Source: Tubiluchus corallicola (Eukaryota; Priapulida; Priapulimorpha; Priapulimorphida; Tubiluchidae). Taken from it: DNA of 64,000 bases. Below the pieces are notes generated by a model. It was given only the letters and a program-made list of their open reading frames with translations, made no database searches and was not told where the DNA came from. The translations under genes and the position numbers were made by a program. Location: the NCBI GenBank assembly GCA_030141605.1, contig JAQGDQ010000043.1:372001-436000 (forward strand), read 5' to 3'. Shown here one piece after another: positions 9,101 through 55,290 of the stretch (position 1 is the first letter of the stretch; each line of letters opens with the position of its first letter).

Positions 9101-12100
9101 ACATTAATAAGTTGTCCAGGGTTATTTCAAAATTGACAAGCATATTTGCACTCAAGTGCTGTTCTTGACATCAAAGATGTTGCTAGAGTAGGCAATCTGT
9201 ACTCTGTATGTTAATTACCAATGGCAAAGTGCCATTTGCAAGTGCAACCATTGACTAATTTCTTTAGTTCTAGAATCACGTGAATAATTAATTGACGGAT
9301 CAAACAAACAAAGTAATGAAAAAATTATTTATTATAATAATTAAATGATTAAAATGGCCTCAGAATACATGTACTTTTTCGTTTATATGATTATCTGTAG
9401 GCTGTAGGGGAACGACCTCCTGTGTTTGATTCTGGTAGTTATGAAGCGTCTGTACTTGAATCTGCTGTTGAGGGAACCGTTGCCGTCAAGGTTTTTGCAA
9501 TCTCAAACCGCAAAGGCGACAATTTTGTTACTTACAGCCTTACCGCTGATGACGGGGATTTTTCCATAAATCATACAACAGGAGAAATCTTTGTTGCTTC
9601 TCCATTGAACTTTGATCGTAGATCAAAATATGTTTTTACAGTAAGTTCACTTTTGACGTTTTATTTTTAGTTAATGTTAGTGGCTGAAGTATTTGTTGTG
9701 CATTTCCGTTTTAATATGAGTAAGTCAAGAAATTATTTAGATTTATTTTTATTTTTTGGGGTAAAGACTCAAAGAAGTAAAGAATTAATAAGAAATTTGT
9801 ATTTCAAAGTGACAGAGATTTTGATTGAATTGCTTACACTTATTACTCAACCATTTAATGGTAAAGTTTACTAATCACAATTTTCCCCAATTATTTATAT
9901 ATCACCAATTTTTTGTTATACAATTACGAAATATAAAAATTTAAAAGAATAAGCAAGGTAGAACATGCAGCGGCAAGAACTACTATACTGTTACAATATA
10001 CATGAACTAAATAAAATGAGTTTAAAATTGAAATAAAAATCTTTTACAAGAATTTTCGCGACGAGTAAAGGTTGAAGATTAGCCAAAATTCGAGAATTTA
10101 CATAGTTTTTACTTGGAAGAATTATTTTCAATGAGCATTGTTGAACAGTTTCTATCAAATCAGAGAGATTTTGGGAGACAGGTGAGTGCCATACCTGACA
10201 AGCGTGTTCAGCAACTGGTCTAATTATGGTGCACTACATTTTTATCATATCATTAGTCCCTGCTCTTTTCGTGTTAATTGCAAAAGGTAAACTCTTTTGA
10301 ATGGTGTGAGTTACATCCACATTGATAGACCCAAGGTTGTAGTTCTGAAGTAGCATTTTAAATGATAGGTGAGACAAATTGAATATTGTGCATTTGACCA
10401 GAGATTGGTTGGCCCTTGATGCACATGGGTTAAAAGGTTAGAAGTTCCGATTTATTTTTCACTTAAACGAATACAATTCGTAGGTAATCAAGTACGGGCT
10501 TCTGGTTAAAAACTGATAAATTCCAATTTGACTGAAACTATCAGTGGCGAACGTAACAGTGCTTACTCACTATTGTTAATTATTTTGAAAAACATTTTTC
10601 TTTGTTAATGTCACACAAATGCTGTCACTTGTTACAATAGCAGAATTGTACTGCAGTTTTTGACACAGTCAAAAATGTTGTCTAGTTATGTCTTAAACAC
10701 TTGTGACATATAACTGGACTGTTACAGGTATTAGCGATGGATAGCGCTGAACCACCAAGAATTGGGACAGCTAGTATTTCCATTCAAGTTATTGACGTTG
10801 AAGACAAGCCGCCCTTTCCACCACTCATGAATAGTTTCTATGTTCCAGAAGGTATTTTGTATTTCTTTCTTGTTGCTGCATTGAGAGTTAATTTAGTGCA
10901 ACAATAAAGAATGTTTACTATTTACAAGAGCTCTATTATGTATATGAGATATAGCAATTTTTGCCTGGCCTGTAATAGAACTGGGCAGTAGTACAAACAC
11001 ACCCTGAACTTGTTTATCTGCTTTATTTTTTGTGCAACTTCTAGATTAGTCTTCATTATTTTACTATACAGATTAGTTGTACTACTAATTTGCAATTAAC
11101 CTCATGCTTAACTAAGTGACACATAATAATATCTGAAAACCCTGAAAAGTAATTAATATTAATTACATAAAAATGTAAAAGTATGCTGAGATTCTTGACG
11201 AACATTTTGTAGTACTAATTTGTATTCTTTTTGTTTATACAGATTTTAGTGTGGGCTCTTCACCTATTGCTTCTCTGCAGTCACTTATTCCAGCAGGTTA
11301 TCTTGATGATGACGACATTCAGTTACGTTATTCTATTGGAAACGTAACAGCTTTTAGTGATGGGGGTCACCCAGTATCGCCAGACCTGTTCAAATTCTCT
11401 GTTGATGAAGTGACTGGTGATGTGTTTCTTGCAAGTGCTCTTGACAGAGAGGTGGCATCTGTGATTCTCCTTGACATGGAAGTGACTGACATAGCTGCCC
11501 GAAAACAAAGAAATGGAATGGGTAAATTACATACTTTTTATTAGATGAAATGACAAATGTTCAGTTTGAGATTTGCATACTACTCTTTAAGCTTGTGTAG
11601 CTTTATGTAAAAGTATTAACTACTTGATTAAAACCAACCCTAGTTTCTCGCAATAATTATGCTGAAAACTATTATTTGGTTAGGTTAACCCGACCGGCCC
11701 TAATTTTTTACCGCCGAGTGTAAAAGTTTCATTAACGATACGATAAAAAAGAGTTATTTTCCAAATAAACAAATTATAGCACGCCCAACATTCAACAATG
11801 TAAAACAACACAAAATGATAGCTATTTAATGCTGTCGTTGTTGCCATTCCAACAAAAATCTATTCTGTTCAAATGCTTTTTATTTTGATATGCAGTCTAA
11901 ATGGTAGAAGTGTCAAATTTGTATTCAAATTCAATTGATTGCACAGATAATATCGGTTACACTTAAGTTTATTCTTCTCTGGTGGTCTGCCTATTTCTCT
12001 ATGGAAAGTGAAAACATGTTACACATCATTAGCATGTAGCCGTAGCAGCTAGTCGTTTGTTGATTATATTTTTCCATAATACAGTAATACTAGTTAGCAC

Positions 12101-15100
12101 AATATATGTCTCTGTGATTTAAGAAAATAAATCAACAGATCGAAACCTGTTTATGTTTTGACATATTTATTTATTTATTTTAGCTTTAACAAATAATAAT
12201 AACAAATAACAAGAATTCAGAAAACTGAATTCGTGGTTTTTTCACCCCTTACTAATCCAATAACAGATATCTCATTAAAGTAGGTAAAGACATTATAGAA
12301 CAAACAGACACTATCAAATTTTTAGGCGAAAGGTAAATAATAAATTAGATTGGCATAACATTTTAATCAAATCCATAAAAACTGGTAACCAGAATAACTT
12401 GCCTATGCCAAGTTAGAGATCAACTGACAAAACACACAAAAATTCTGATATATAAACAGTAGTAATTCCCCACTTTTTATATGGTTGAATGTTGCTACAA
12501 CCATATGTTAAAATTAAACCCACTTCAAAACTATGCACTAAGACTGACTTCTGGCTACTCCTATGAAGCTCCCACAAAAAAGAACTGTTCAGCAACAACT
12601 TTAAGAAGTTTGTTGTATAAATATATCAATGGTCTCAAAATCCCTTCAGAAATGACAAACATCCTTTCTTGTAAATTACTGATCGAAATTGCCATATTAA
12701 TAACCTAAAGCAAATTCAAACAAACAATAAATTTGGTAATAATTCAGTAGGCAAACAAGCCCTATCTATGAAACTCTCTGCCATCTATTATCAAACAGTC
12801 ACAATAACTGGCTATTTTTAAAAAGAACCTGAAACAATACCAACTAAGTAGATTTCAAAAACCAACTATGTCGTTAACTTCTTTAATTCAAATTTTGTAT
12901 ACCCACATCTCCAACAACTGATAGAGAATAATTATAAATTCGCAACTCATAATTAGTAAATTAAACAGCTGTCTGTAGTAATAATTTTTGTTAGGTTTTA
13001 TATACGAATGTATTGTGTGTATTGTAATAGTTGATGCAAATTTTGCTTACATTTATTATGTATTTTATTTATTATATTGTACGTATGCATTGTGTTATGT
13101 ATTATGTGTATATTGTAATGTACTTTACTAATCGTATGGCTCCTATGTGTAGTATTGTAACTATGTATGTAATTGCTTTTATTTTTAATTTTTATGCACT
13201 AGTAGTTTATGGTTTTGCACCAGATGCATTTGGCTTTCACAGTGTTTAGTACTGAAAGTATTTTTAACACAGAGGATTGTATTTTATTGTAAATTATTTT
13301 TATAGCAAATAAAGTATATGTGTTTATATAATAATAATGAAAAGATACAGCACAATAAATTGCCCGGGAGACCTGTATAAGGTGAAAAGAACACCGCATA
13401 ACATACGGGCCACTACCGACTCGTTTGATTTTTTTTAGTGTTACCCTAGCAAACTAATGCATTTTGTGCTGGTTTTTTCCAAATAATATTTGCAAAACAA
13501 AAGGTTTTGCTCTGTTACCATATTTGTTGGTATCCCATATGCAAATATGAGTTTTGTCAAAAGAGTTCAAGCCATTAATTAGCATTACTAATTATCATTA
13601 ATGACTTCAAATAATAAATTTTGGTATAAATTATTGTTATTAATTTTGAGCACATACTTCATTGTCACACAATTATGTGGATCAGTTAAATGGATTAGTA
13701 AGAAAGTGCCATTATCCAACAAATCCTAGCAACAAAAATGGGTTAGTCAAACAATAATAAAAACTTAGTAAATACATTAAAAGCAACTGTGTTTGATTTT
13801 GATGATTAAGACAGTGATAAGAGTTGAAAGATAAAAGCTGCTAATGTAACACTGTAACGAGTTTTACTAAGATATACGTTGATAAATTTGCATAAATCTT
13901 GTATGTACTATTAGTACCATGTTTGCAAATCTTGCTTATCACTTTGTCTTTTATATTATGCATGACTATGTATGTTACATAAATAAGATGAGGTGGCTAG
14001 GTTAACCTTATTTTTCTGTTTAAATTCTATTAATTTTAAGTTAAGGCCAGGTCTATCATTTTTTGCAACATTCCATTATGGTATCATTCAGAATTTCTTC
14101 TGTGGAAGCCTACATTTGCTTTAATGGGTTTAGCTTTTGTTTCTGGACATTTTATCAACTACAGTCAAAAACGTGTCATAACTGGTGTCGCTCTTTTCAG
14201 ATGATTTTTATTTGGTACTCAAGTTTAGTCCCAATAAATTCAATTGTATGATGAATAGACGGAACAAACGCACACACACTCAGTTTTTCTAGAAATGTGT
14301 GTGTTTTTTCAAACTCTAATTAATTCTCTCAAATTAGCAATTTATTGTGCGATTAAAGTATTTTATCTACAGTGGAAACACGGATGCCTCACCAGGAAGC
14401 AAGAATTGCTTTGTTGTTACTCATTAATGACACCTTTTTATGATTTTTTTTTTACAATATTTTTATGTAATTTAGGAAAGATTGTTATCCACGTTAAAGA
14501 TGTTAATGAGATTCCTCCAGTTTTCTTCCCACCGTGGACTCTGGAAAATCCCTATTATTATACAAGCGTAATGGAAGAGTCTCCTCTTGGAACAGTTGTC
14601 ATAGTGATGGCTGCCATGGATGTAGAATCTGGAATAGCTGAATATGAGTTAACATCGAACCCAAATGATTATTTTGCAATTGATTCTGAAACAGGTGAGC
14701 TTATTTTGAATTTGTTCCACCATTAGAAAACAAAACCCTTGAACTAATAAAGCACTCTTTTAAGGAACGTTTGATATGACAAATTCCTGTAGAAAAATTT
14801 ATGCAAACAGCACAGAAAGATTGAATTTGTAGAGAGCTTGAAGTATATTAGGCTGAACTTAGTGCAGAGTGTTGTAGGTTCAGTCTGGTGGTTGAAACAA
14901 AACTATGAAATTGCGTTGAACTGTGAAAGACTTTATTTCTATTTACATATTACACTATTATTTACAAGCAAGAAGACACATGGTGACCATTCGACAGCAG
15001 TGTTGAAGAAGAAAAACAAACCTCAGCTGGCCTTGGCAGAGCTACCCAAATCACATGCACCCACTGAGTTTACCTGATTGGCTGGTAAAACACACTAGCT

Positions 15101-18100
15101 ATCAACACTACCATATTTGGGAAGCCCAGCTGGTACAAGTGGTTGAGTAGCACAAACCAAGGCCACAACCTGGATTAAACTTGACTCAGTTCAATAATAA
15201 ATAATGTCAAATGTAGGTGGCAGCACATATTAAATTATTATTGTAATACTTTTAATTAAGAATTGCAAATGAAGTGGTGCTGACAAGCCACTGGCGTAGA
15301 AGTGTCTGGTTTTTAGTGCTGGATTACTGCTGCGTTTATCTGTCTGAAGCTGACAAATGTCTACAATAGACGTGATGGGCGTATGATGATGATGTTAATA
15401 CTGATGATGAAGTGTGTGTTAATTCCCACCCAAGGGTGCCAATTTTTTGCATTTTGCTGTCATTTAATACCAACTTTATCTTCCTACACTGTTTTGAATC
15501 TAAGACTTCTGTACTTAAGTTCCCAATCATTTTCAAAAGAGAAATTATAAAAAGAAAGATAATTGGATTCTAAGAAATAATGTCAATTGCTGGCAAGTCA
15601 AATTTAACCATCTTCATTTCTTACCTAATTTGTTTACCTGGCTGTATAGTAAACGTGATTAAATGTTCATTATGATGCTGATATGTTACAGGATTTCTTG
15701 CAATAGAACCCAATAAAAAATGAATATTATTTTTTGCAAGCCTGTGGTCTTTACTTTAAATAAAACGTTTTATCATATTGATTGCAAATATTTTCTCATT
15801 TTGTATACATATTTATCTTATTCATTTCATGGTATAATCTTTTTACCACCCATTAAATTGTTGAAAAGAAAATGGTTAAAAGTTGATGTCATAATTGAAT
15901 ATTATTATTATTTTGGTAAATTAAAGTTACAAATAACATTAACCATTCTTTCACTAGATGTTATCAAATTTCTGAAAAAAATTTCATTTAAGCTTAAGAG
16001 CAATATTGTCTTAATAACTACTGAAAATCTTGAAATCTTAAAACTTGACAACTTTTGGTGGAGTGGAAAGGAACAAGTTAATGAACTAGGTGACGCTTTC
16101 ACAATGTGTTTTCTTCCTTACAAAAAATTATTATTTACGAAAAAGTTTTTTTAAAATAATTTAAATTAAAATAACATAAAAATATTGAATGCCTTTTGTA
16201 GTCTCACAATAAGTTTATTTATCTCAGGAGCCTGAAATAAGTTTAGTTATTTATTTATTTTAGAAAGTTCCTTATTTTGGGACTATTAAGGGCATTTAAC
16301 ATTTTTGTGTGTTAAAGATGGAAAGTCTCAGGAGAATTGTCTCATATTTTATGTAAAATTTATGCTGAATGAAAGAATTTGCTTTTCACCTCAAATTTAC
16401 TGAAATCACCACAGACTATGATGAGACTGATTACTGAATTATGAAATTAATTATTATTTGTTTTAGGTGTTGTAACTCTGGTGAAACGATTAGATTACGA
16501 ATCTCTAGATAACAAGAATTTGACATTTGAGGTTACCGTACGTGATGGGGGAGTACCGTCACTTAGTGCAACTGCTACTGTCATTGTTACAGTAATTGAT
16601 GTAAATGATAATAGTCCTCGCTTTGGCAGGGTAATGGTTTATTTGTTTTACATTCTCATGTGATTTTCTTAACTTCACTCTATTAACATCCTCTGTAATA
16701 ATCGATAATTTGTAAAGCCTATGGCTATACTAATTTGTTTCATGTATTGAAATCAGATTTGTTTTTGTGACCTTAAACTCAGCAAACTAATTTTCTTTTA
16801 TTGGACTTTTATATTTTACCAGCAATTATAAATTTCAGAACATTTCTACAGTTAATTTTTTCCTAGGATTCATATTCTACTAGTATACTTGAAAATTCTC
16901 CGGGTAACATGTATGTCACCGAGGTACAAGTTTCAGATCCTGACACTGATGGAATTACATATAGTCTGTCTGGGCAGGATGCACGGTTATTTTTCATTGA
17001 GCAAAATGTAAGCTTTTGACATATTACTTGTTTTGCACTTGTTACAATACACTTTTTGAAGTTCTAAATGTATTCGAAAATACGGGTACAGCTGTGGTTT
17101 TATTAAGCGTTACGTTTTATTGAAACATAATTACTTTAGCTCAAACTGTAATACAGTAGCACTGTCTATTCAAATATACTGTACTGCATCCCACAATGTG
17201 CAGCTAGCTTATAAATTAACCTTTAAAACTTTGAGGATGTGATGTAGGTTTTTAACATGTTTTTTTTTCATTGTGTGTAGGGCATTATTAGAGTAAGACC
17301 AGGTGCAGAATTGGATCGTGAGTCAACACCAGTCATTGTTATACAAGTAACAGCACATGATTATGATTCAGCTGCAAACAGCAGATCAGCATCTGTACCG
17401 GTAATTGTTCTGTGTTCTGTTCACTATTAAGAAAGGTCACTGTCTTTATAACCTGCTGAGTTTTTTTAACTTTATATGTTACAGTATTCAGTCTGGGTGG
17501 TTTACAGATCAGATATTAAGCATAGGTGTTTTCTGTCTCTACTAAATAGAATATTAATTTTTATAATTAATTAGATATGTTTCTTTTGTGCCATGATGCC
17601 AGTGCAGTGTGCAATTTCATGTGTTAGCTCAATTGCTAAATACGCCCAAGATAAACATAATAATAAATGTATTATTAATTTTCTTATAAGCGATTAAGGC
17701 GACATAGAAATGAGTGGAAAAAACGAAGTTCACTTTGTGACTATCCTTTTGTTTTGAAACATATTTTAGTTAAATATTTTTGTATCCCTCACATCGACAT
17801 GTTACACAAAGTCTGTTGAAAGAAGCCGCAAAACAACTGGAGACACATTAGTTTGTATAAGAAATGAAATATTTTTTTACGTACTGATCAATTTATCAAA
17901 AATCAATTTTCTGTGTATCGCAAAAACACCACAGATTCTATAAGTGAACAAGTAATTGCATTATAGAAATAGATTAACAGTCACTTGATTATGAAAAAAA
18001 AGCTCTGAAGTTTTTATTTGAGATAATGTTAACATATTGTTAGAGACTTGCTGTTCATTTTAACATGCTGTTAGAAATGAAAAACAATCTGAAAATGTTC

Positions 18101-21100
18101 GACAACTAAAAAAGAGGTATCAGCGTTACTCGTCCCATAATGCCTATAATGCATATATTCAAGCTAAAGAAGAGTTTAAAAGCAGTTTAATTTCACAAAT
18201 AGATAACTGGATTCTCACTAACTCAGTTAATATGAACTCGTCCAAAGGAGTAAACTTTTGGAAGGCATATCATAAGGTATTTCCTAACATAAAAGACAAT
18301 CAAGTTGACATTTTAAAACATGGTAACCGTTATTATATTACTGATGAGGACAAGTGCAACTTGTTCTATGAAACCTTCTTCATGGGTAACCATTTTGACA
18401 ATGACATATTTGATAACAACTGGAAAGGGTTCGTTGATCAGTTTGTTGATTCCTTAGAATATAGTGAAGGAAACGATGACTTTCTGAATGTTCCTTTCAC
18501 GATGGACGAACTTAATAAAGGAATAAAAGGAAGTTCCTCAAATGGCAAAAGCTTTGATATGGATGGTATCCATCCTCGAATGATTAAAAGTTTAGGATTT
18601 TGGGCCAAATCTGTACTTCTGAATTTGAGTAACATATGTTTAAGCACGCAAGAATGGCCTTGGTTACAATCCAAAGTAATATTTATTAAAAAACAGGGCA
18701 AAGATAAATATGCGGATCCCAATGCATATCGTCCTTTGTCGTTGTCATCCTACATAGGCAAGCTTGTCGAGCGACTCTTTGTTAACCGATTAATTCTAAA
18801 ATGTCCAATGGAGGTATTGGACATTGTACAGGAGAGTTTTGTCGCAGGACACAGTACTGAACAATATTTGTTTCGCCTAATTAGTAAAATGCAAAGTGAC
18901 CTCATAAAGAAACATCCAGCTATCGCTGTATTTTGTGATTTTGAAAAGGCCTTTGACAGTGTGTGGGTCAAAGACCTAATCTTCAAACTGTATCAATTAG
19001 GAATTGCTGGAAAGTTTTTGGCCTTTGACCCACACACTGTCGCTCGATCATTCTCTATCAGTGTAGGAAAATTCTGTTCTCAAGAGTATAACAGTAATAT
19101 TGGCCTCCCGCAAGGCTCTGTCCTTTCACCTCTATTATTCATAATTTTCATCTCAGAAATCCTAAATGATGTAAGATCCAATAAAATGGCAGACGTCTTC
19201 AAATACGCAGACGATGGCACATTTTACGCATCTAAAACAAACTCTGATGAGTGTCGTAATACTGCGCAAATCTGTTGTAATAAGTTACATCTATGGTGTA
19301 AAAAATGGCGGCTGAAAGTCAACTGTAATAGGAATAAAACGGAAGTTATGGTCATGGGGTCTACTCAAAATATAGTAAATAATAATTTGCCTAAATTAAA
19401 AATTGGTGGTAATGAAATTGAATATGTTCAAAATAGTACAGTACTGGGTATCACTATTGATAGTAATCTGAAATTTGATTGCTATACCAATAGAGTTAGG
19501 AAAAATGCATGGCACAAATGGACACAAATTAAGCAACTGTGCTTCAAATACAGAGGAATGAGAATGGCAACTATTATACAACTGTTTAAAACATTTGTAC
19601 TACCTGTTATACTATACAGTGCCAGTGTTTGGTTAGCTAAAAAATATTCATTATTTGATGACTTGTATTATGATGTCCTCAGAACTGCAACGGGTTCATC
19701 CTTTAAACCTTGCAGGGTATTGTTAGAAATTTTATGTGGGTTGCCTCCTTTAGAAATCGAAATGAAAGCTCATAATGTAAGGTTCCTAAGTAAAATATTG
19801 CAGAATGGTGATGATGATCTAGTTAAGAAAGAACTTTTGTATGTATTTAATACTAACTTTTATCTGTCATATAACCACTTTGTAAAATATTATGCTAGAG
19901 ATTTAAGGCAATTTTTGGCTACTACTAGAGATGCAGGGCGAATTAGCAACGAAGAACTTTCTATAGTTAATTGGTCTGTTACAAAATCTGATCTGGATAT
20001 ATTCAAGCAAACTCTTTGGCACAGACAATTCAATACTTATACCTTGTTAGAAAACAGAAATGAATGGTTTGGCATAATCCCACAACTTAAGCCCTTTAAT
20101 TTACCAATTTCACTTACAAATAGAGAGCTGGAATCCATTGCTCTAAGTTTTATTCATGGACAAGGATTTTTTAAACATTTTTTATTACGATTAGGACTCA
20201 TACCTGACAATTCTTGTTTATGTGGTCTTCCTCAAACTTGCGAACATCTACTTTTCGACTGCCCTTTCGTAGACTCACAAAAGCGCATGTTTTTTAAGAA
20301 TAACATTAACACCACTAATATTGCTGTGTTAATTCAAAAGCAAAATGATAGCAGCACTTTGAGCTCATTTGTTGAAGTAATTAGGATGACTTTATTAGAC
20401 AGCAAATGTCAGGAGTATTATGATACGTGTTACTAAACTAGCGGTTGTACTATTGCCATCTTTGTAATTTTAATTAGTAATTTACAGTGTCTAGAGACAC
20501 CTTATTTTATTATTTTCTTAGAAAATTTGTAAAATTTATAATTTATACTTATGCTAATGTTGTACCTGCAAATAGAGGTTTTATTAATAAAGATTTTAAA
20601 TAAATAAATAAAAATGCTGTTAGAGACTTCCCCATTCAGCCATAATGAGCAGTTTTGTTAAAGACAGAAAACAAAATTGTGCCGTAAGTTATGGACCATA
20701 CAGTTTTCAAACAGATGTTGCTGACATTTCTGAAATAGTAAACACGGTGGCAGGTGGATATGTAGCTGTATGATCAGCTAGTAACATCAAGAACAATCAA
20801 TGACAACTTTTGGTTCGTATTTTATAGGTTTTCATTCATTTGCAAGACATAAATGATTCACCTCCAAAGTTCATGAGAACAAGCTACCATGCCATGATAG
20901 TCGAAAACATCCCACCAGATACACCAATTGTACAAGTGTCTGCTACTGATGCAGATACAGGTGTTAATTCTGACATGCGTTATTCTATAGTAGATAGTGG
21001 ACTGCTTCGTAGTAAGTACTGCATTTTATAAGTTGATGCACCACTCTAGAGTAGACAGTGGACTGCTTTTTAGTAAGCACTGCACTTTGTAAGTTGATGC

Positions 21101-24100
21101 ACCACTTTAGAGTAGATAGTGGACTCTAGAGTAGTAAGCACTGCACTTTGTAAGTTGATGCACCACTTTAGAGTAGATAGTGGACTCTAGAGTAGTAAGT
21201 ACTGCACTTTGTAAGTTGATGCACCACTTTAGAGTAGATAGTGGACTCTAGAGTAGTAAGCACTGCACTTTGTAAGTTGATGCACCACTTTAGAGTAGAT
21301 AGTGGACTCTAGAGTAGTAAGTACTGCACTTTGTAAGTTGATGCACCACTTTAGAGTAGATAGTGGATGCTAGAGTAGTAAGCACTGCACTTTGTAAGTT
21401 GATGCACCACTTTAGAGTAGAAAGTGGACTCTAGAGTAGTAAGTACTGCACTTTGTAAGTTTACACACCACTCTCGAGTAGACAGTTGTCTGCTTCGTAG
21501 TAAGTACTGCACTTTGTAAGTTTACACACCACTCTAGAGTAGGCAGTGGACTGCTTCATAGTAAGTTAATGCCCCACTCTAGAGTAGTGGACTGCTTTGT
21601 AGTAAGTACTGCACTTTGTAAGTTGATGCACCAATCTAGAGTAGACAGTGGACTGCTTTGTAGTAAGTACTGCACTTTCTAAGTTGATGCATCACTCTAG
21701 TTTACAATGTTTCAATTTCTATTGCCAACATCATTGTCATCATTTCAGACAGACTTTCTATCAACTCAAGAACTGGTGCTGTCTATAGAAATGCGGACTT
21801 TACTGGACTTGCTGGTGTTTATGAGTTCATTGTACAAGCTCAAGATGGTGCTGGTGTTGGGGAAAATGTTGTATCAGTTCCAGTAGCTATTGAGATTTTG
21901 GATATCAATGATAAACGACCACGTTTCATAGTTCCGCCTGTTGATAATACAACAGTCCATGTCCTAGAGGTGAGTAATAATGCTAGAATTTTTTTTGATG
22001 CCACAAATTAAATACTAAGTAAACTAAAGTCAATTTAGCAACTACTTTTTTGGGTATCATCTCTTTTTTATTTTGTATTAATGCACTCATTTGTTTTTTG
22101 AAATTGTATTTAAAATTGCGTAGTTATTAAATTTTTTGGAAATAGCTGAGTAGTCATAATGTTTGTGTGATGCACAGCTGGGAAGTTAAGTAACAGAGGA
22201 TCCTTTAGCACATGGATGGGTGACTCAGAAAAAAGTTTGCTGGGGCAGTTTCATTTGCCATACTGCTCAGGCTGTTTTTCTCACTCAAAAAGGATGTTTT
22301 ATCCTATTGCTACTAGGTTGCCTTTTCTACATCAGTGTCTTAATATTGAGCTAGATTCTGGTCCTTCCATGGCTGTCTAGATAATGTAGACCTTGTCGTT
22401 GAATTCTGGCTGTCTAAGCTGAACTCCTTAAATTTTTTTGTAGTTTGTCACTACAAAATAGCTTTTGCTTGATTCCATATAATGTCACTTCTTACTTTGA
22501 ATATATCTGCCTTTGACTTTTTTCAGAATCAAACTGAAGGCTACATTCTGATGGTTGTGGTTGCCAGAGATGATGATGAAGGTGACAATTCAAATGTTAA
22601 TTATGGATTTCGACATAATGGTATATTTGTTAACATGACTGAAGAGTTTGCCATAGATTCTGTGACAGGGGAATTGAAGACACGTGTGAGGTTAGATCAT
22701 GAAGAAAAACACAAATATCAGGTTTGCATAAATAATATATTTCGTTTATAATTTGCATTAAATAATAATAAGTTCTGATTTTGATATATGTAAACAGAAA
22801 ACAAGAAATTGATTGTCATAGCTTTTTTAAGTCACGAATTCTTGCATTCCGCTTGAATTTATTGATAAATGACTAAACATTTTTGTAACTAACAAGCTTT
22901 TTGATGAGCAGATGTACTTAGTTTTTAAAATTCTTTTTAATGGATTTTTGTTACCCTTATTAACAGTTTTTAATGGATTACCTATTTAGTACACTATTTT
23001 TATCAAATGCATAAATTTTTTTCCACGAACTGATTCACATTGTGTGAATTTTATAACATATTTTTGCAGCTAACATTGGTAGCCAAAGACAATGGAAATC
23101 CACCTTATGAAAGCTACCGCCTGGTCACCGTTATTGTAGATGATGTTAATGATAACAAACCTATGTTTCCAAGAACTCCTGTAAGTAATTTTTTCAAGTT
23201 TTTGGTAACCGCATATTTTCTTTCTGACATTTCCTTGCTACTTTAATATTAATTGTCTTATCACTTTCAGTACCTTTTCTAATTTGTCATGTTTTTTATG
23301 CTTTGTAGGATACAGAACCATATGTATTTACTGTAGTTGAACATAGTCATTGGCCACAGGTTATTGGTAACGTTACTGCAAATGATTTGGATTATGGAAA
23401 AAATGCAGAAATCTTTTACCATATCATTGGTAAGTGGTAGTTATACATATTTTAATGATTTACAATCATCTCATTCTTAATTAATTATTCCAACTTTTCA
23501 TTTTGAGTTTCAAAGCATTAAATGTAGTGCATTACCATTAGTTACTACTTTGAGTTTTACAAAACAGTTTAAGATGATATGTGGTTTAGGTGGAAATTCA
23601 GAAAATTTCTTTAATATAAATTCTACTACTGGTCAAATCTCTACCGTGTCTACAGTTGACCGTGAAATCAAAGATCATTATGATCTTGTCGTTATGGCAA
23701 CAAACGATGCGAACTATGGTGGTTCACAGTTTGACAGGAAGAGGTAAGTTTTAGTGTATTTTTTATTTTAACAGTTTTTGGTAATCTAAATATAGAAATT
23801 GTGTGTTAATACTTCTCGAATTCTCTGACAAAAGTCTGGTTTTAGAGTCGTAAAACACTCATTGCTTGTGGAAATAACACTTTTTTTTCAATATGCTAAA
23901 ACACTCTGTAAAAATATTTTAGTATATATTTAGACTTTCTAGTATGTTAGTTATGAATTGATGCTTGTATTTCATTTTACTTCGCAAGAAAACGCTGTTT
24001 CCAGCTGGGTTGATGCTGATTTAAATTTGTCCTTCAGGTCTATTAATAAGAAATATAATCCAGAGGACATGTCAATGGCACTTGTACATGTTTCTGTATC

Positions 24101-27100: not shown

Positions 27101-28797
27101 ATTAACAAATACATTAATGTTCCCAAGTTGTTACAGTTTCCTGTTTTGAGTAGAATAAAATTAATATTTAATCATTGAATATTTTAATTTAGCTTTCTTA
27201 ATTCTTTTTTGAACTTTTTTGTCTGCTCATAAATGCGCACTGTCATGTATGTGCTCATGCGGTTTGTTATAGGAAAGAAGCTGTGTATGTGCTCTTGTGG
27301 TTTACTCTAGGAGAGATGTTGTGTATGTGCTCATATGGTTTGTTCTAGAAGAGATGCTGTGTATGTGCTCATGTGGTTTGTTCTAGGAGAGATGTTGTGT
27401 ATGTGCTCGTGTGGTTTGTTCTAGGAGAAATGCTGTGTTTGTGCTCGTGTGGTTTGTCTTACGAGAGATGCTGTGTATGTGCTCATATGGTTTGTTCTAG
27501 GAAAGAAGCTGTATATGTGCTGTCGTGATTTGTTCTAGGAGAGATGTTGTGTATGAGCTCGTGTGGTTGGTTCGAGGAGAAATGCTGTGTTTGTGCTTGT
27601 GTGGTTTGTTCTAGGAGAGATGTTGTGTATGTGCTCGTGTGGTTTGTTCTAGGAGAAATGCGGTGTGTGTGCTCGTACGGTTTGTTCTAGAAGAGATGCT
27701 GTGTATGTGCTCGTGTGGTTTGTTCTAGGAGAGATGCTGTGTGTGTGTGTGTGCTCATGTGTTTTGTTCTAGTATATACTCAGGCTGTATCTGGCCAAGT
27801 TTGAGGTTAGAGAAAAAGGGGCCGAAACCTGAATCTTATAATTCTATTTTTAGTCTGGTGATGACACTGGGTGTGATTGCTCTATATATGTGTGTTGTCA
27901 ATACAAGTTTTTTGTTCTTTTTGGCAGATTTAATTTGCAAAATATCAGTGGAATATTATTATAAATTATCTCCAAGTTTATAATAAATATGCACATAGCA
28001 GAACTATTTTATTTTCAGTTCATAAATTTTGGTTTTAGCAGGTCATTTCGACAGTTTTTTCTTTGCCATTCGAACATTTCAGTTTTGCTTTATCCAGCAG
28101 CATTTAATTGTATAATGAGTTATTATACCTTTTTCACATGGCAAAACGGTTTCAAAGCATTTTGAGCTCAAAAGATTTTAGTGCAAAGCAGTTCAAACTG
28201 CCTCTAAAACCGATTTGAAAATGGTTTGGCGAAAATGTTACGAAAACATTTCGAGCAGCTATGTGAATGATCACTCACAGAACTGATGCACAACGCCATC
28301 TAGTGTAAGAAATAACAATTATTGCTTAAGGAATTGTGATCACAAAAGATAATTTTGTGAATTTTACTGCAGGACTGATGTATTTATTCACGTCATTGAT
28401 CCCAGCAAGAATGAAGTTGTTCCAGTACCGGAAGTTCTAAGACTCATGGATACTGACAAGTTTTATCTGAAATATGAATATGAGCATTTTCTAGTGCACA
28501 AAGTGGAGGTAAAATTGTACTGTTAATGATGCAAAAACAGACAGTTGTCAATTTCTTGAAAGTAAATGTTTGGCTAAGTATAATTTCAAATATATACTAA
28601 TTGATGTGTCAGTTTCATCATTAATTGTTATCATTAAAAAAACAAAAAGTCAAAATGCCTTTTAAGTCTAAAAAATAATCTATATAATATAATATATATA
28701 ATCTAAATAATATAATCTAATATAATGTAAATATATAGCATATATATCTATATATACATGCATACATACATACACATATATATATATATATACATAC

Positions 28798-32405: not shown

Positions 32406-33367
32406 CTATAGAAGGTAGTCTGGTATGGTGTAATTAAACAATAGAAAGTCTCGTTCAAATAACCTATATAAATCTTGTATCACGCCTTTATCAAGTGGGC
32501 CGAAATATTTCCTCATCATATCGGAAGTTCTGCTTCCGGGTTTGCTGGAACCACCTTCCTTTTCTGGAAAGACAATTTTCTCCAGAAGATTCACTGTGCT
32601 TAGAAAGTATTTTGTATCTTTCATCATGTCTTCATATTTTCCGATGAAGTCGTAGTTCACAAAACACGGATTGCATAGATCTGTTATTCTTGCAAAGTGT
32701 TCATTATAAGTTTGTGGGTCTGCTATAAGCAAAAATTGCACAAATTCTTGAAACGTTATTTCTGGATCATTTACATTTTCTTTTTCTAACTTCAGTGCCT
32801 CCATTATCAAGCGTTTTGTGCTACTCCATACTCGTTGGCGCTCGATTTTGTCCCTGTAGGCAGATAAGATGCGCTCGAATGGATGGCGTGCGAAGAGAAA
32901 TTTGGTGTAGCTTTTTAGAATATACTCTCTCATGCCCTTCGAATAGCTGATGATCTGCCGTAGCATGTCGCCTTTGTTGACACGATTATGAGGCACAGTT
33001 CCATTAAGATCAGAAAGCAAAATGGTTGCATTGATAGGTGCATGATTATTATGAGCACTTTCAATCTCAGCTTCCATGAGAGCAAACAATGTCCGCTTCC
33101 AGTTGGAACAAGCAACTTTTGGTGTGGAACAATATGCTATATGGTGCATGTCATCCACTAGCATTTGAGTTCGCCAGCTCCACCTTTTTCCACGTCCTCC
33201 AAAATTCACTTTCCCATCAGGGTAAACATTATCACATGTTTCTTTGATTAGTTTTAATCGCTCAGCGTACAGTGAGTCCATTTTGTCTTTGCTCAAATGT
33301 GGATGCCAGTAGAAGAAACTTGATCTTACTGTCTCTTTTTCTACAGTCTTGTCAATTCCTACTTTAT
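32406..33367 (-). CDS. Carbohydrate sulfotransferase, HNK-1ST/C4ST (CHST8-14) family, terminal exon
   Basis: Golgi type II membrane enzyme family that transfers sulfate from PAPS to glycans (chondroitin, dermatan, GalNAc or HNK-1 epitopes). This exon encodes 319 residues plus the stop. The PAPS 5'-phosphosulfate loop STPKVACSNWKRTL and the 3'-phosphate motif FARHPFERILSAYRDK are both intact, about 77 residues apart. The C-terminus LYRLFERDFLLFNY is family-typical. The exon starts after a - strand acceptor (cag, plus-strand 33368-33370) in phase 1. A TTG within it is not a start. The cytoplasmic tail and signal anchor must be in an upstream exon that I could not find before 36 kb. Acceptor glycan and exact subfamily are undetermined. 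Confidence 0.93.
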
Positions 33368-33370
33368 CTG

Positions 33371-34060
33371 AAAAATCAGATAGAGTTCAATGCACATACC
33401 TATATTAGATTATGGTAAACAAAATTCATTAATCACAGTTTTTACTAGTATATAGTACACTTTATGACAATAAATCACATTCATAATGAAAGACCAAATT
33501 TATGTAATAAGCTGCTTTTACAATTTGTCTGTAAAATGATTCGTAAGATTAAACTGCCTTAGAACCATTACATCATTTAATTTGACTGGAAACCCTCCTT
33601 TGTATTTCACATGCTGCAGGTGTTGTGCTGCCATGACAACATACTGTCTGTGGTTTAAACAGGCAACATACTTAAGTGGTTGTTGTGTTTGGAATGAATG
33701 AGTGATAAAGAGATATATTTCAAACAAATTGTCAGTATTTAGAAAGCAATGAAGAAAAATTCTGATTTCTGAGAGCATTTTTCACAAAATTAACATTGAA
33801 TGCCACTAATAACCAATTAAATGACTTAACAAAGAAGCTCACCACAGAAGAGCTCAAGTTAGTTCAAGATATTTTTTTCATATTTCATTTACGTTATATT
33901 TATATACTGGGAAAATACTATCATGACTCCTCATCGCCATGTACTAACATCATTCATATTTTCATATATTCTTCATTGCCATGCTAAATTCTTACTCATT
34001 TCTCTCTAATGTCCCATCTGAAAGTGAGAGAGAGCAAAATGAGAGAGACAGAAACACAAG

Positions 34061-35658: not shown

Positions 35659-35731
35659 CGCCCAACGTGGGGCTCGAACCCACGACCCTGAGATTAAGAG
35701 TCTCATGCTCTACCGACTGAGCTAGCCGGGC
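35659..35731 (-). tRNA. tRNA-Lys (anticodon CTT)
   Basis: A 73-nt gene. The - strand starts GCCCGGCTAGCTCAGTCGG (A box) and contains GGGTTCGAGCCCC (B box); the acceptor stem GCCCGGC pairs with its 3' partner with one G-U-type position. The anticodon CTT is at plus-strand 35696-35698. A T6 run on the - strand (35643-35648) serves as pol III terminator. No intron. Looks functional. Confidence 0.97.
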
Positions 35732-49317: not shown

Positions 49318-49325
49318 TATAAAAG
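49318..49325 (+). promoter_or_regulatory. TATA box of secreted Gly/Ser-rich gene
   Basis: TATAAAAG, followed 32 bp downstream by an initiator-like TCACTAT with +1 A at about 49350. Confidence 0.75.
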
Positions 49326-49349
49326 GGGAGATGAAAGCAAAGATTAGTC

Positions 49350-49402
49350 ACTATTGCTTTTCACGTGTGGGAAACATACGCTTCCTGGGCAACACGAGCA
49401 AG
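49350..49402 (+). other. 5' untranslated exon of Gly/Ser-rich gene
   Basis: Runs from the predicted start to donor CAAG|gtagtt. Contains no ATG. The intron to 50150 holds a long polypyrimidine tract (49575-49830) and ends at acceptor ttctag one base before the start codon. Confidence 0.6.
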
Positions 49403-50151
49403 GTAGTTTTACCAAAATTTATTATTATTTTTCTTATTTCTCTTAGACGCAACTTTTTCAAAATGTCAGCGCCTTTTGACTGTATGGAATAGTTTTATTT
49501 TGGTTTAAAAAAATTCTAGGAATTTTAACAATAATATGTACAAAAAGTCCATGCTGAACATGCAGAGTAACTACTGTTTTTTCCTTTTTTTGCCGCCTCT
49601 TTCTCCCTGCTTCTTGTTTTTTAATTTCTTTCTCCACCCTTAATTCTTCCGTCATTTTTCTTTCCGTAATATTTTTTAACCGTTTTTCCTCTTTTTCTTT
49701 TCTTTTTTCTTTATTTTTGTTTTTCTTGTTCGTTCTTTCTTTATTATTCCTTTCTTGTTTCCTTTGACACTTCCTTCTTTCTCGTCTTCCTTGATTCATT
49801 TTTTCGTCTTTACGGGCTTTCTTCAAAGCTACATGTAGTTTTTATTAAATATTGATACTTGTTTGTAATCGTGACGTGCGAAGTGAACTCTTGTACTATA
49901 GTTTCAGCACAACCTTCACAGTAACAGACCTGGGTCATAGTAGCAGGTGACAGGATAAATTTTAGGCTGTATTGTAGCAGACGTCATACCAGGCTATAAA
50001 GATCGGTTTACTGTGCTAGCTATTGTGCTTTTGTGTGACGGAAAATAGGGGTAAAGAATGTATTCATTGGAATGATCGGTCGTGAAAATAATTACTATTG
50101 CTGCAATGACTATAATAAGTGCGAATCATAGTTTATTATTTTGATTCTAGG

Positions 50152-51108
50152 ATGCAGTGTTTTTCCGTAGCCGTTCTGTTAGCATGCATTGCTCATGTCA
50201 TCAGCGATGCTAATGGTCCTGAAGGTATAGCTGGTGTGCAGGGAGGAGGATATGGTCAACGCCGTAGTGGCGGTTCCACGCGGTTTGACCTAGGACAATC
50301 TGGCTTTGACTTGATGAATGTTCGTGGACGTAGTACAGGCCAGACACACGTACAACAGCCTACCCAGTTCAGTGGTTCATCACTTCAGACTCTTGGAGGA
50401 GGCAGTCGTCAAACATCTTTCCAAAGTAGAGGTTCAGGATCATTTGGTGCATCATCGTTTGGTGGGTCATCAGGTGGCAGCTTTAGTGGTTCTTCTGGAG
50501 GGTCCTTCGGTGGTTCCTCTGGTGGTTCATTTGGGGGTTCTTCAGCTTCCTCTCAATTTTCTTCTGCTGGTTTACAGGGCTTCGGCGGTGGAAACATTGA
50601 TCCCAATAACTTTGGTAATATCGACGCTGAAGCATTTGGCTTTGAAAACTTTGGCAACAACTACATCAACGTTGAGGACTTTGACTTCAATCAATGGAGA
50701 AACGATGCGGCTAACCTAGCCCCAAGAGAAGCCGTTAACGCTGCCCAATCGGAGCAGGTGGTCATTGGAACAAGGTTCCGTTCAGGGTTTGCTCGTCAGA
50801 ACGAGAAGAGTGAACAGGTCAGAGAAGGGTCTGGAAGTGGAGAAGCTGGTATTGAACTCAGTGCCTCACGGGAAGCTAGCCAGGATGCTACCCAACAATA
50901 CACACAGTCCGCTTCAGGAGAAGGTAAGACAGAACAGGGTGCAGCATACGGATACCAGAGAACGCCTAACTTGCAGTTCCAAGCTGTTCAACTTGAATCT
51001 CTTCCAGTTCACTCAGGACCCGCTAACACCCTGCCATCAAGTGCAAGAACAAGATCTTCATCTAGAACTATTGGGGGTGGAAATCAGCAGAGAGGATACG
51101 GCAATTAG
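50152..51108 (+). CDS. Secreted Gly/Ser-rich protein, unnamed family (paralogue A)
   Basis: Product of 318 residues. I start at MQCFSVAVLL because the acceptor at 50149-50150 falls one base before it and the residues form a clean signal peptide (1-20). Seen: RGR/QTS-rich 40-95; silk-like GGSFGGSS repeats 97-140; Asn/Phe/Asp-rich 145-178; then a core shared with the - strand gene at 53689-54375. Core motifs: DFDFNQWRNDAANLAP (176-191), VIGTRFRSG (204-212), GSGSG (226-230), QQYTQSA (248-254) and GAAYGYQRTP (263-272). There are no cysteines outside the signal peptide and no known domain. An extracellular structural or matrix role is inferred from composition only. Poly(A) signal AATAAA at 51456-51461. 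Confidence 0.88.
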   Translation: MQCFSVAVLLACIAHVISDANGPEGIAGVQGGGYGQRRSGGSTRFDLGQSGFDLMNVRGRSTGQTHVQQPTQFSGSSLQTLGGGSRQTSFQSRGSGSFGASSFGGSSGGSFSGSSGGSFGGSSGGSFGGSSASSQFSSAGLQGFGGGNIDPNNFGNIDAEAFGFENFGNNYINVEDFDFNQWRNDAANLAPREAVNAAQSEQVVIGTRFRSGFARQNEKSEQVREGSGSGEAGIELSASREASQDATQQYTQSASGEGKTEQGAAYGYQRTPNLQFQAVQLESLPVHSGPANTLPSSARTRSSSRTIGGGNQQRGYGN

Positions 51109-51455
51109 TTACCCTTGCGTCATTCTCAGTATTAATGGCGGCTCGTTTCTGGTGTTTTTGGAAAATCTAACAAGGACAAAATGTCTTTATGTTCATGATA
51201 ACTTCCCTCTTTTTTGAGCTTTGGGAATCACATCGCAGACTGGGACATCAAAACTTCAGTAGCTTGTTCAGCTCATGTTTGAAGATAGCTTTAGATCTGT
51301 TAATAGATAAAACGACTTAAATCAAAGAAGTTGATTTCATACGTGTATTTATATAAAGCGAAGTCAAGTGACAAATGTTGATATCATTGAGTGTATCCTT
51401 CACGTGTAAAGCAATTGTGACAAACAAGGCCATACTATGTACATATAATTATTAA

Positions 51456-51461
51456 AATAAA
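51456..51461 (+). terminator. Polyadenylation signal of paralogue A
   Basis: AATAAA about 350 bp after the stop codon. No closer canonical signal seen. Confidence 0.6.
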
Positions 51462-51479
51462 TAGAAACTAATTTGCAGG

Positions 51480-53417
51480 AAAAATATTTTTGAGTATGAT
51501 TACGTAAGTATTGTGAAATGTTATTAGAATTTTTGCGATTTCTTCAGCAAAAGTTTCATTTGCCAAAAGGCCAAAGTTTGTTTCAGCTTTGCTGCGAAGA
51601 GACAAAAATCAGATCAATAAAATTAACCGGTAGCAGCAACATCGACGACGAAGAAGACGACAACAACAGTAAGGACAAAGACAATGACAAGAGAAAAGCA
51701 AAAACATCAATAACTACAACATCTGTAACAGCAACAACTTCAAAAGCTGCAACAACAAGTACCATAAAAATCACAACAGCAGTAGCAGCAGAAGTACCAA
51801 CAAACTGAAATGACAAAATATTATAAAACTTAATTTCTAGTAGTAATATCAATACAGCATCTTTATCACAAACACGCATTAAAAGGAAAACAGTAGGAGT
51901 GAAAAAAAGGGAAAACTGAATTATCCATATTATATATGGGCAAATAGATGCAACTACATCAAAACTGAATTTATTGCCGACCGGTTGCTACTAACATGTT
52001 TGTTTGTTTGTGGAGTGTAGCATAGTTTCATAGAAATCAAAATACGTAATCTGCAAGGTAAAATGCTGAATTATCTATATAATGTTATTTCATATATCTT
52101 TTGGCTATCTAACTACTGAATTTCGACGTTGTTTCTCAATTCTGGTAAATTTCTTTCTTTTAGATGCCTTGACAATGAACAGTTTGTTCGAAACCGGATG
52201 GCAATAAATTCAATTTTGATGTAAAAAGGAAAACGTCAACTTTATTTTTTTTACACAGTTCGGAATTTACAAACTGGAAATCAGCATTCAACAGCGTGTT
52301 CTACTTAAATTACGTGATCGTGGGGAGACCGGAACCTAACTGATTGTTAAGGCTATGCTCTAAGATAAGCCACTGAATCGGCAGAACTATCTGAACCACG
52401 GAAAGGAGTAGTGTCTACAATCCTCCCTCTGCTAATTTCTTTTTCTTTTAAAATCGACGTTTATTGACACCTGTACCTAGCTTTTTACATTATCAGTTGA
52501 TCTGATTTGCAGAAAGTTAATTTGTTCACTAGTAAGAAACTTAATAGCTTTTTGAATTTATAGCAACGTTGAAAGCATTTTTAGCGTTATGCTCAAATCA
52601 TAGCTATGTCCTTACCTATTTCAATGTCTATACATTTTGTAGGCGAAAAAATATTAGTAAAGAGGTAAAGCGTGCAGAAGCTTTGGCAGTTACGTCACTG
52701 ATATCATTCTCTATGCTGCAAGCCATTTTATTGCAGCGTGGTTAAATTTTCCATTTTCTAATCATTACTGTTTTAAAACGGCTCACTGCCGCTAAAATCA
52801 TGCTTCGAACAAAGAATGATCATAATTACGTCCAAAAGATAAATTGTAACAACAAGGTGGATTCTTGAATGTGATCGACGAGAAAAGAACTGGATCACGA
52901 TGCAGCATGACAGGTAGAGTTTGTTCGCTGCATTTAACCGAGACGGTTTTGAGCCTGAGCAGACCGGGTTTTTCTCATTGTCTCTAATGTGAGAGTCGAA
53001 GTTAAAGAAACTAAAACTTTAATTTTTTTTCATGTACTCGTATTTGTAGTCACGTGTTCGTGTGCGCGTTTTTAACTAATGTTTGTGATTTGTTAACTGC
53101 ACTGGAATGTTTGTGAAATAAAACGTTTCTTTCCTATCTGAACTGAATTGGTGATACTGTAGCATTCTATTCGCTAGAGAAACCAGTGACGCCAGAGTTT
53201 ATTTTGACCCTACACATCTTTTCGTCAGCTTTTAAATATGATTTGATTAACAGCAATGTCTAAACTACATTTTGACACCAAATCATGTTTGCCTCCAGTA
53301 TTGTTTTAAGTCAGGATAACATTTTGGCATACGACGATTTTTTTATTGGACATTTGTCGTGTTTTTAAAATAGAAGAAATGTAAGGAAACAACACAGCAC
53401 AGCTTCAAAGTGCATAA
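51480..53417. other. Intergenic between convergent secreted-protein genes
   Basis: Includes an AAC/ACA/GAC-rich simple-sequence stretch (51640-51810) whose two opposite open frames are low-complexity artefacts. No further gene is supported. Confidence 0.5.
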
Positions 53418-53423
53418 TTTATT
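53418..53423 (-). terminator. Polyadenylation signal of paralogue B
   Basis: AATAAA on the - strand, about 265 bp beyond the stop codon. Confidence 0.55.
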
Positions 53424-53688
53424 AAGCATAATATATAAACATCAACAAATAAATAACAACAACAATGGCCCTAAAATTGACACAGTTGCTTAAAACGTGA
53501 GAGTCTCGGATCAAAGTAGCTGTTTTTGTTGGCACATCGGTGGAGCAAACCGGCGATTTGTCAGTCAAAATTTTGGAAATTATAACACAATCATGATGAT
53601 AACAGAAACATGTTCGTATCATGAACAGCAAGTGTTTTCTGCTGCAGAAAACAGAGGGCAGCAGTTTCCATGAATGTCACTTCAAAAT

Positions 53689-54375
53689 TTAGTGACCATA
53701 TCCTCCTCCGTAACCACCGCCTCCATGCCCATAACCTCCACCACCTCTACCTCCATAGCCTCCGCCGCCATGGCGACCTCCACCATAGCCACCTCCGTGT
53801 CCGTACCCCTTGTTGACTGGCTTCCCATATTTGACTTTTGGTTCCTTGACAGGGACTGGTTGATATCCTATTTGTGGGTATCTCTTGAATTGATAACCAG
53901 CTCCTGATCTAGTGTCACCGTGTGTCTTGGCTCCCTGGCTGTACTGTTGATTGGCATATTGTTTAGCCCATCTGGAACCTCCGACTTGTACTCCGCCAGA
54001 TCCGGATCCTTTTCCGGATCGATCCCCTGCAGATCCAGTAAACTGCCCAGCATTCCCGGATTTGTACTGACGCCCAATAACTCCAATTCTTGTTTTGGGT
54101 TTAGAGTCAGCTGGAGCATCTCGAGCTGCATCATTGCGGCCCGCTCGGAAATCGTATGCTTCTAGATCCACGTACTCTGCTCCATAGCCTCCACCGCCAA
54201 ATCCACCTAGAGTCAATTTGCTGAAAGCATTGAGATATTCATCAGTGGGAGCGTCATCTCCAAATGGAGCAAATCCACCCTTTCCACCATAGCCTCCATA
54301 GTAACCACCTCCACCACCGCAAAGAACGCCAGCAATACAGCCCAGCAATATAGACGAGACTAGGACCTTATTCAT
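53689..54375 (-). CDS. Secreted Gly/His/Tyr-rich protein, unnamed family (paralogue B)
   Basis: Product of 228 residues, starting MNKVLVSSIL after a - strand acceptor at plus 54387-54389. Signal peptide about 1-19 (ends GVLC). GGYYGGYGG run 20-35; acidic/aliphatic stretch 38-58; then the shared core: YDFRAGRNDAARDAP (74-88), VIGRQYKSG (99-107), GKGSGSGG (121-128), QQYSQGA (143-149), GAGYQFKRYPQIGYQPV (158-174). The C-terminus 188-228 is a Gly/His/Tyr tract (GYGHGGG, GGGRHGGGGYGG), reminiscent of structural or metal-binding matrix proteins. Convergent with paralogue A and with the same exon plan. Function unknown; an extracellular material is the likeliest role. Confidence 0.9.
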   Translation of the reverse strand: MNKVLVSSILLGCIAGVLCGGGGGYYGGYGGKGGFAPFGDDAPTDEYLNAFSKLTLGGFGGGGYGAEYVDLEAYDFRAGRNDAARDAPADSKPKTRIGVIGRQYKSGNAGQFTGSAGDRSGKGSGSGGVQVGGSRWAKQYANQQYSQGAKTHGDTRSGAGYQFKRYPQIGYQPVPVKEPKVKYGKPVNKGYGHGGGYGGGRHGGGGYGGRGGGGYGHGGGGYGGGYGH

Positions 54376-55198
54376 CTTTAATGTGCCTGCAACAGCAAGA
54401 AAAAAAATCAATATAATAAAACAGCAAGACGCCTTTATGCTTAATTAAGCAAAGTGTTGTTCTCTCTTTCAACTTTAGTCGGCTGTAGTTTGGATATTTT
54501 ATACTTATTCGGGTTGCATACTTTAGTTGTATCTCCGATAGTGCCCATACTATTACTGTTTTATATGAGTTGACAGTATGTGGATTGGTGGTAAACCGCA
54601 TGGTACATGCACCTATTAAAATCTAATACAGTGATAAAGAGAAGCATCAAAACGCTTGTTGCAAATAATAAAACTCACTGGCCCTTTTATTACTGTTGTG
54701 TTTTGCTACTGATCATGTATTACGATATTTTTTCTGCTTTATCTTTTTGTAATTTACCTAATAACATTTTTTAAATGAAATACTTTTGCATATACCCAAA
54801 TTATTCTCACAATAAAATGATGTTACTAAATTCAATTTTAGCTAATCATTTTTCAATATGAGATTATGATCAGATCTGCGCTTAATAGAATATATGTCAT
54901 TAGAAAGAGAGAGTTAATCAAAATTGTATTAAACATCATAATAATTATGATATTATTATATTATTAAACTTACATGTGACATTATATTAAACTTTTTCGA
55001 TTTTTCATTAGACGCATTTAGTCAATTAATACATTTCATACTAGCAGTTTGAAACTATTACTGTAACTATAACTTTTATATGTACTAGTTGTAAACGCTT
55101 TTCATTATATAATAATTATTACAAAGGCAAGGTATAAATAAATTCTTTAAAGACAGTAACATAATAAAGTAAAGTTAAATTGTGTAGTTAAAACTTAC

Positions 55199-55259
55199 CG
55201 GTTAGCAGTGCCAAGTCTAACCGTTGAATTGTACGACTCACACGAGTTAAGCAAAAGGT
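55199..55259 (-). other. 5' untranslated exon of paralogue B
   Basis: From the predicted start near 55259 to donor ACCG|gtaagt (gt at plus 55197-55198). Spliced to the coding exon at 54386. The intron 54387-55198 holds nothing recognised. Confidence 0.55.
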
Positions 55260-55282
55260 GTCTCTTACCTGCGATGGCAGAC

Positions 55283-55290
55283 ATTTTATA
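55283..55290 (-). promoter_or_regulatory. TATA box of paralogue B
   Basis: TATAAAAT on the - strand, about 31 bp before the predicted transcription start. An ATG and a strong donor (GCAG|gtaaga) follow it closely; see the finding on an alternative first exon. Confidence 0.65.

Follow-up and report, generated by a model that had tools for sequence, protein, structure and literature searches.

What do two neighbouring, apparently secreted proteins have in common when their glycine-rich parts look nothing alike? The question arises from a stretch of the Tubiluchus corallicola genome (contig JAQGDQ010000043.1, positions 372,001 to 436,000; contig label C1248 here), where two convergent genes, gene A and gene B, were analysed. 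We refer to the whole 64-kb stretch as the window, and all coordinates are window positions. The sequence-only reading of this locus had described each gene as having a TATA box, an intron ending at the ATG and a single coding exon, with unlike Gly-rich parts in the two proteins. All of these elements are present in the sequence, from which alone the promoters, introns and untranslated regions (UTRs) are predicted:

49318..49323, plus strand: TATA box of gene A (TATAAA found in the sequence)
49403..50150, plus strand: predicted 5'-UTR intron of gene A, from the sequence, with a scored acceptor; its 3' end lies 1 nt upstream of the ATG
50152..51108, plus strand: coding region of gene A, a single open exon of 318 amino acids (aa)
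50152..50208, plus strand: signal-peptide-like N-terminus of A, about 19 aa, holding the most hydrophobic 12-mers of the protein; cleavage site placed by eye
50212..50637, plus strand: variable Gly/Ser/Phe/Gln-rich tract of A (27% Gly, 21% Ser, 9% Phe, 8% Gln)
50638..51030, plus strand: conserved core of A, by match to the family hidden Markov model (HMM); isoelectric point (pI) 4.6
50785..50934, plus strand: alternating segment of core A (profile positions 50-99), from the conservation pattern, mapped by hand from the alignment
53689..54375, minus strand: coding region of gene B, a single open exon of 228 aa
54319..54375, minus strand: signal-peptide-like N-terminus of B, by hydrophobicity; cleavage site placed by eye
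53806..54207, minus strand: conserved core of B, by match to the family HMM; pI 9.9
53908..54057, minus strand: alternating segment of core B (profile positions 50-99), from the conservation pattern, mapped by hand from the alignment
53692..53829, minus strand: Gly/Tyr/His-rich C-terminal tract of B (61% Gly, 15% Tyr, 9% His)
54387..55198, minus strand: predicted 5'-UTR intron of gene B, from donor and acceptor in the sequence; its 3' end lies 11 nt upstream of the ATG at 54375
55285..55290, minus strand: TATA box of gene B (TATAAA, starting at 55290)

The intron of gene A begins at 49403 with a donor-like site (CAAG/GTAGTT), and a single nucleotide separates its acceptor from the ATG at 50152. 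In gene B the donor-like GTAAG is at 55198; a second one, at 55268, sits close to the TATA box, some 20 nt away. Neither mature protein contains a cysteine.

Outside these tracts the two proteins share a core. Five short motifs (RNDAA-xx-AP, VIG-xxx-[RK]SG, GSGSG, QQY[ST]Q-x-A and GA-x-Y-xxx-R-x-P) had been listed as common to both, and alignments recover all five in both proteins in the order claimed. BLASTP with composition adjustment aligns A and B with 49 of 123 residues identical (40%, E 7e-15). The Smith-Waterman score of the two cores is 199, whereas 1000 composition shuffles reach at most 68 and 1000 shuffles within 10-residue blocks at most 92. The similarity thus exceeds composition-shuffled controls, the check that had been proposed, and chance or composition is ruled out as its source. 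The core is longer than first thought, however: the family HMM extends it to about 130 residues instead of about 100. Over 135 aligned codons, 51 residues are identical, and 31 of these 51 are encoded by different codons. Conservation is lowest at codon position 3 (0.33, compared to 0.51 and 0.53 for the other positions). Both features are what one would expect if the coding sequence is old and selected.

We searched the window's own assembly (343,548,820 bases, or 343.5 Mb, on 2344 contigs), the only animal genome covered; below, L-numbers denote core-bearing family members and C-numbers contigs of this assembly. A and B turn out to be more than the simple pair they had been taken for, both belonging to a family of 36 places. 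Protein B as query reaches 35 places, the distant core L039 reaches 36 and core A 36, with a union of 36 on 29 contigs. Place counts for large families are lower bounds; nonetheless, two different queries both arrived at 36. Three of the places are exact copies over 3.4 kb (C2262 and C2263 copy C2196; C2286 copies C1545) and may be uncollapsed haplotypes or assembly overlaps, which leaves 33 distinct core sequences. The members L011/L012/L013 and L029/L030 are identical over 3.4 kb despite lying on different contigs, and on C2262 and C2263 the identical stretch is equally far from the contig end, which suggests either of the same two origins. Members sharing a contig are convergent on C1248 (A and B), C1535 and C1841, on the same strand on C2338 and C1926, and divergent, 165 kb apart, on C2265.

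The family alignment and most counts given here are based on 32 of the 33 distinct sequences; the 33rd (L041) was added afterwards. As L041 stood outside HMM building, its match to the family HMM (5.5e-34) is an independent test. The remaining 35 frames match at 2.4e-35 or better, values that only delimit the core because the HMM was iterated on these same frames; independent evidence for them comes from the pairwise genome searches. Across roughly 130 columns the core alignment contains few gaps; ten positions of the core are invariant in the 32 sequences, and cysteine is absent from it in all 32 members. Its pI is below 6 in 23 cores, above 9 in eight and 6.9 in one.

The statement that the core has no named domain holds for the whole alignment: Pfam returned no family for A or B up to E 10 and none for any of the 32 members up to E 0.01. 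Among PDB chains nothing better than E 1.1 was found by any search, the best value for the family profile being E 2.2. There were no relatives of the core in viral contigs or in a prokaryote genome collection, neither of which is an animal genome collection, so that this result bears little on animals or on the lineage specificity proposed by the sequence-only reading. The shared core peptides, used as query in the open-access literature, brought up no related paper among those listed, judged by titles and abstract beginnings. As far as these literature searches reach, and only as well as they perform, the core is undescribed.

Are A and B nonetheless each other's closest relatives? The core tree joins A with L027 (contig C1926; support 100/99) and B with L002 (C633; support 98/92), and its deep branching is largely open (16 of 29 inner branches). 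A second tree of 26 of the 32 rows, from which six long-branched ones were left out, recovered both groupings. The tree program marked the composition of L003 and B as unusual and the branches of L003, L004 and L023 as long. Forcing A and B into one clade costs 72 log-likelihood units (p value of the approximately unbiased test, p-AU, 7e-72); this constraint was tested after the first tree, on a pair chosen before any tree. A and B accordingly sit on different branches of the family and are not sister genes, and a recent inverted tandem duplication is ruled out as their origin by the same p-AU.

The gene structure seen in A and B recurs in the family. Based on N-terminal hydrophobicity, by which signal peptides were judged, 28 of the 32 members have a signal-peptide-like start within the core exon. 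Of the other four, L011 begins beyond the stretch analysed, with a hydrophobic start present in L042, and the rest are L038-L040. For 25 of the 28 members with a hydrophobic start, a pyrimidine-tract splice acceptor lies at most 14 nt from the ATG, compared to 236 of 2766 for all other ATGs of these loci. We therefore regard a 5'-UTR intron ending at the ATG, followed by a single coding exon, as a family trait. Ten members (L026, L006, L007, L008, L009, L016, L017, L018, L023 and L028) carry a further short stretch of conservation, a motif of the type DA-F-G-x-E-G-I-x-G-V, directly after the presumed cleavage site.

What surrounds the core changes from gene to gene. At the N-terminal side, the tract is 55% Gly at one extreme (L024) and 45% Gln at the other (L014, with GYGQQQ repeats). 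In L010, a protein of 970 aa, NGGS repeats flank the core at either end; the array in L029 is C-terminal and made of SYEPAGR, and a 39-residue word occurs three times in L019. In four diverged paralogue pairs compared by blastn with masking off, the alignments cover 424-521 nt around the core and, elsewhere, no more than a single stretch of 41-47 nt. A family that kept its core while its low-complexity flanks changed is what the sequence-only reading had proposed, and it is what we find: 33 distinct sequences, no Pfam match and little that can be aligned outside the core.

The core itself is conserved at the protein level. We compared ten core pairs for the ratio of nonsynonymous to synonymous divergence (dN/dS); four are saturated, and the six usable ones, not fully saturated and not independent of each other, give 0.25, 0.27, 0.03, 0.04, 0.05 and 0.06, with dS of at least 1.3 in three of them. 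In the saturated comparison of A with its sister L027, the proportions of nonsynonymous and synonymous differences are 0.061 (pN) and 0.863 (pS). Judged by these substitution patterns, the core is under purifying selection.

One pair, L039 and L040 (contigs C1772 and C1731), is 90% identical over a 424-nt stretch around the core, with a core synonymous divergence of 0.23. Within 9.9 kb it shows no further alignable stretch at E 1e-5. The flanks may have turned over very fast, or gene conversion may have been restricted to the core.

How is this conservation distributed along the core? In the weighted core profile it alternates from position 50 to 99. The autocorrelation over this segment at lags 1 to 8 is -0.52, 0.59, -0.57, 0.53, -0.57, 0.41, -0.60 and 0.38, and the even-odd difference of 1.42 bits was matched by none of 20000 within-segment shuffles. 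The alternation is not a mere product of the GSGSG stretch, as positions 70-99, which exclude it, give 1.36 bits (0/20000 shuffles). Positions 44-61 give 0.99 bits (382/20000), and there is no alternation at positions 1-43 (8625/20000) or 100-130 (9835/20000). Because the segment 50-99 was picked after a scan, we applied a stricter control in which columns were permuted and the best window was sought anywhere. For windows of 30-50 none of 2000 permutations reached the observed value, both for all 32 rows and for 20 diverse rows; for a window of 20 the counts were 2/2000 and 0/2000, respectively. The result for the diverse rows rules out a tight clade of near-identical members as the source.

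The two faces differ in kind. Even positions are nearly fixed, with 25% Ala, 24.5% Gly and 15% Gln, and this face typically reads G-A-Q-E-S-S-R-G-G-G-A-I-L-A-R-A-Q-A-Q-Y-Q-A-G-G-T, one letter for every second residue. Odd positions vary among Ser, Glu, Thr and other polar residues. Gly, Ala and Gln are commoner on the even than on the odd face in all 32 members. The net charge of the even face hardly varies (mean 1.2, standard deviation 0.7), while that of the odd face ranges from -5 to +4, with -5 in A and +2 in B.

Every-second-residue conservation over positions 50-99 leads us to propose an extended strand with one packed face. We suggest, with a probability of roughly 0.45, that A and B belong to a large family of secreted silk-like, matrix-forming structural proteins whose core is an assembly module with one or more extended beta segments. 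Every member would then combine a constant core with a signal peptide and with a low-complexity tract that has been rewritten between one gene and the next. The central 50 residues of the core would form the beta segment or segments, and the nearly fixed Gly/Ala/Gln face may pack against another copy, so that chains are linked as sheets or fibrils. How soluble, charged, hydrated and cross-linked the material is could depend on the variable face and on the tracts that flank the core. An extended strand rises about 3.3 angstrom per residue, and 50 residues as a single strand would measure about 165 angstrom; hairpins with odd-length loops could keep the same parity.

From the signal-peptide-like N-termini and the composition we infer an extracellular structural role, and known systems offer partial parallels, taken here from excerpts of the cited papers. 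Silk-like proteins as classed by SilkSlider have at least 25% Gly in an 80-residue window (McDougall et al. 2016, PMC4944945). A reaches 31% and B 41% in 80 residues, and 21 of the 32 members pass the cut-off. A and B resemble these silk-like proteins in having a Gly-rich tract; the class also calls for a predicted signal peptide, and the N-termini of A and B are strongly hydrophobic and signal-peptide-like. Silk-like and shell-matrix proteins are usually described there as similar in composition without recognisable sequence kinship, whereas the present family keeps a 130-residue core within one genome and has 11 of 32 members below the Gly cut-off. For mollusc shell-matrix proteins, secretion is described, along with families restricted to particular lineages and tracts that are repetitive, of low complexity and quick to evolve (Kocot et al. 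2016, PMC4897951; for Lottia, the lists in PMC3374290 and PMC4094399); the likeness to our family is one of description. A search of the assembly for the mollusc haemocyanin domain returned nothing, and its 14 controls were likewise empty. The repetitive C-termini of the squid beak proteins HBP-1 and HBP-2 (excerpt of PMC6884462) are somewhat like the Gly/His/Tyr tail of B. Unlike these, B carries the core, a difference drawn from the description of the HBPs only, and has no GHGxY motif. Tandem GHGxY repeats number zero in A and zero in B, which rules out membership of the squid histidine-rich beak family. Gly-rich secreted repeat proteins are a well-known kind (PMC4944945; PMC4897951; PMC3374290), and what sets the present family apart is a strongly conserved core across many tract types.

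Several observations weigh against an extended assembly module. The beta structure is proposed solely from the conservation pattern. Averaged Chou-Fasman propensities are helical at positions 55-59 and 72-88 (except 85), and for hydropathy the helix fit (0.91 and 0.64) exceeds the strand fit (0.37 and 0.39) in two windows, which begin at 76 and 81. For conservation in the same two windows it is the strand that fits better (0.81 and 0.56, compared to 0.12 and 0.12 for a helix). The core is poor in bulky aliphatics (11.4% Ile, Leu, Val and Met), and the charge-hydropathy plot places the cores of both A and B on the disordered side. The members L038-L040 show no signal-peptide-like start in the core exon, and 11 of the 32 members fall short of the Gly cut-off. 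Finally, L007 and L017, the closest non-identical pair at the core, align across the tract over 1536 nt, and tract turnover is therefore fast but not instantaneous. The helix result led us to lower our estimate for the assembly module from about 0.5 to the value given above, and to lower slightly that for a bolder version of it. According to the latter, the core would be a previously undescribed fibre-forming module, a strand of about 50 residues stacking into sheets, with acidic and basic versions that co-assemble and A and B being one of each. We consider this version improbable; if true, a single assembly rule would underlie about 30 materials in one genome.

A doubtful but possible alternative is that the core is a compact binding domain of several short elements, for chitin or another matrix polymer for example, that anchors the tracts to a scaffold without self-assembly. 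The few gaps over about 130 columns and the purifying selection would suit such a domain, as might an apparent alternation in hydropathy, of the kind seen in strands, around positions 1-20 and 101-130. Its scarcity of bulky hydrophobics and the lack of cysteine in all 32 cores speak against it, as do the absence of a Pfam match and of any PDB profile match better than E 2.2. Short strands linked by turns would, moreover, not usually keep a period-2 parity over about 50 residues.

The core could also be largely disordered and conserved for a series of short motifs that serve covalent cross-linking (through Tyr and Gln) or modification (such as S-x-E phosphorylation), which we find unlikely. The charge-hydropathy positions of A and B agree with it. 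So do the S-x-E/D motifs found at positions 50-99 in 29 of 32 members, given that S-x-E phosphorylation is described for limpet shell proteins in the excerpted PMC4094399. However, B, L002 and L024 have no such motif, the Ser of 77 of the 79 motifs lies on the variable face, and selection on motifs predicts no strict every-second-residue conservation.

That these are secreted but non-structural proteins (gland, mucus or defence products) with the core as active part is very unlikely: a large paralogous family with variable flanks fits gland or immune repertoires too, and Gly-rich immune genes are among the false positives of the published predictor (PMC4944945), but the tracts are of a repeat type known from structural materials and the core is constrained, not diversified.

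The rest of the window contains other features. At 18064-20436 (plus strand), a 790-codon open frame matches the reverse transcriptase family RVT_1 (E 7.6e-28) and represents a LINE-type element. It is flanked by open frames at 11179-11544, 14259-14726 and 21688-22011 that look like cadherin exons by eye; the first has a weak Pfam Cadherin match (E 0.00096, below the curated cut-off), and 21688-22008 has no Pfam match. A 326-codon open frame at 32406-33386 (minus strand) matches the carbohydrate sulfotransferase family Sulfotransfer_2 (E 1.4e-49). Tandem arrays lie at 20989-21552 (61-base units) and 27246-27747 (38-base units), and a tRNA-Lys(CTT) gene at 35659-35731 (minus strand).

Gene A and gene B thus open onto a natural series: at least 33 proteins that kept one module through many replacements of their material tract. 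Two questions can be put to this series: what holds such proteins together, and what do the repeats contribute? The core profile also provides a handle for annotating 'uncharacterised' secreted proteins rich in Gly, Gln or Asn.

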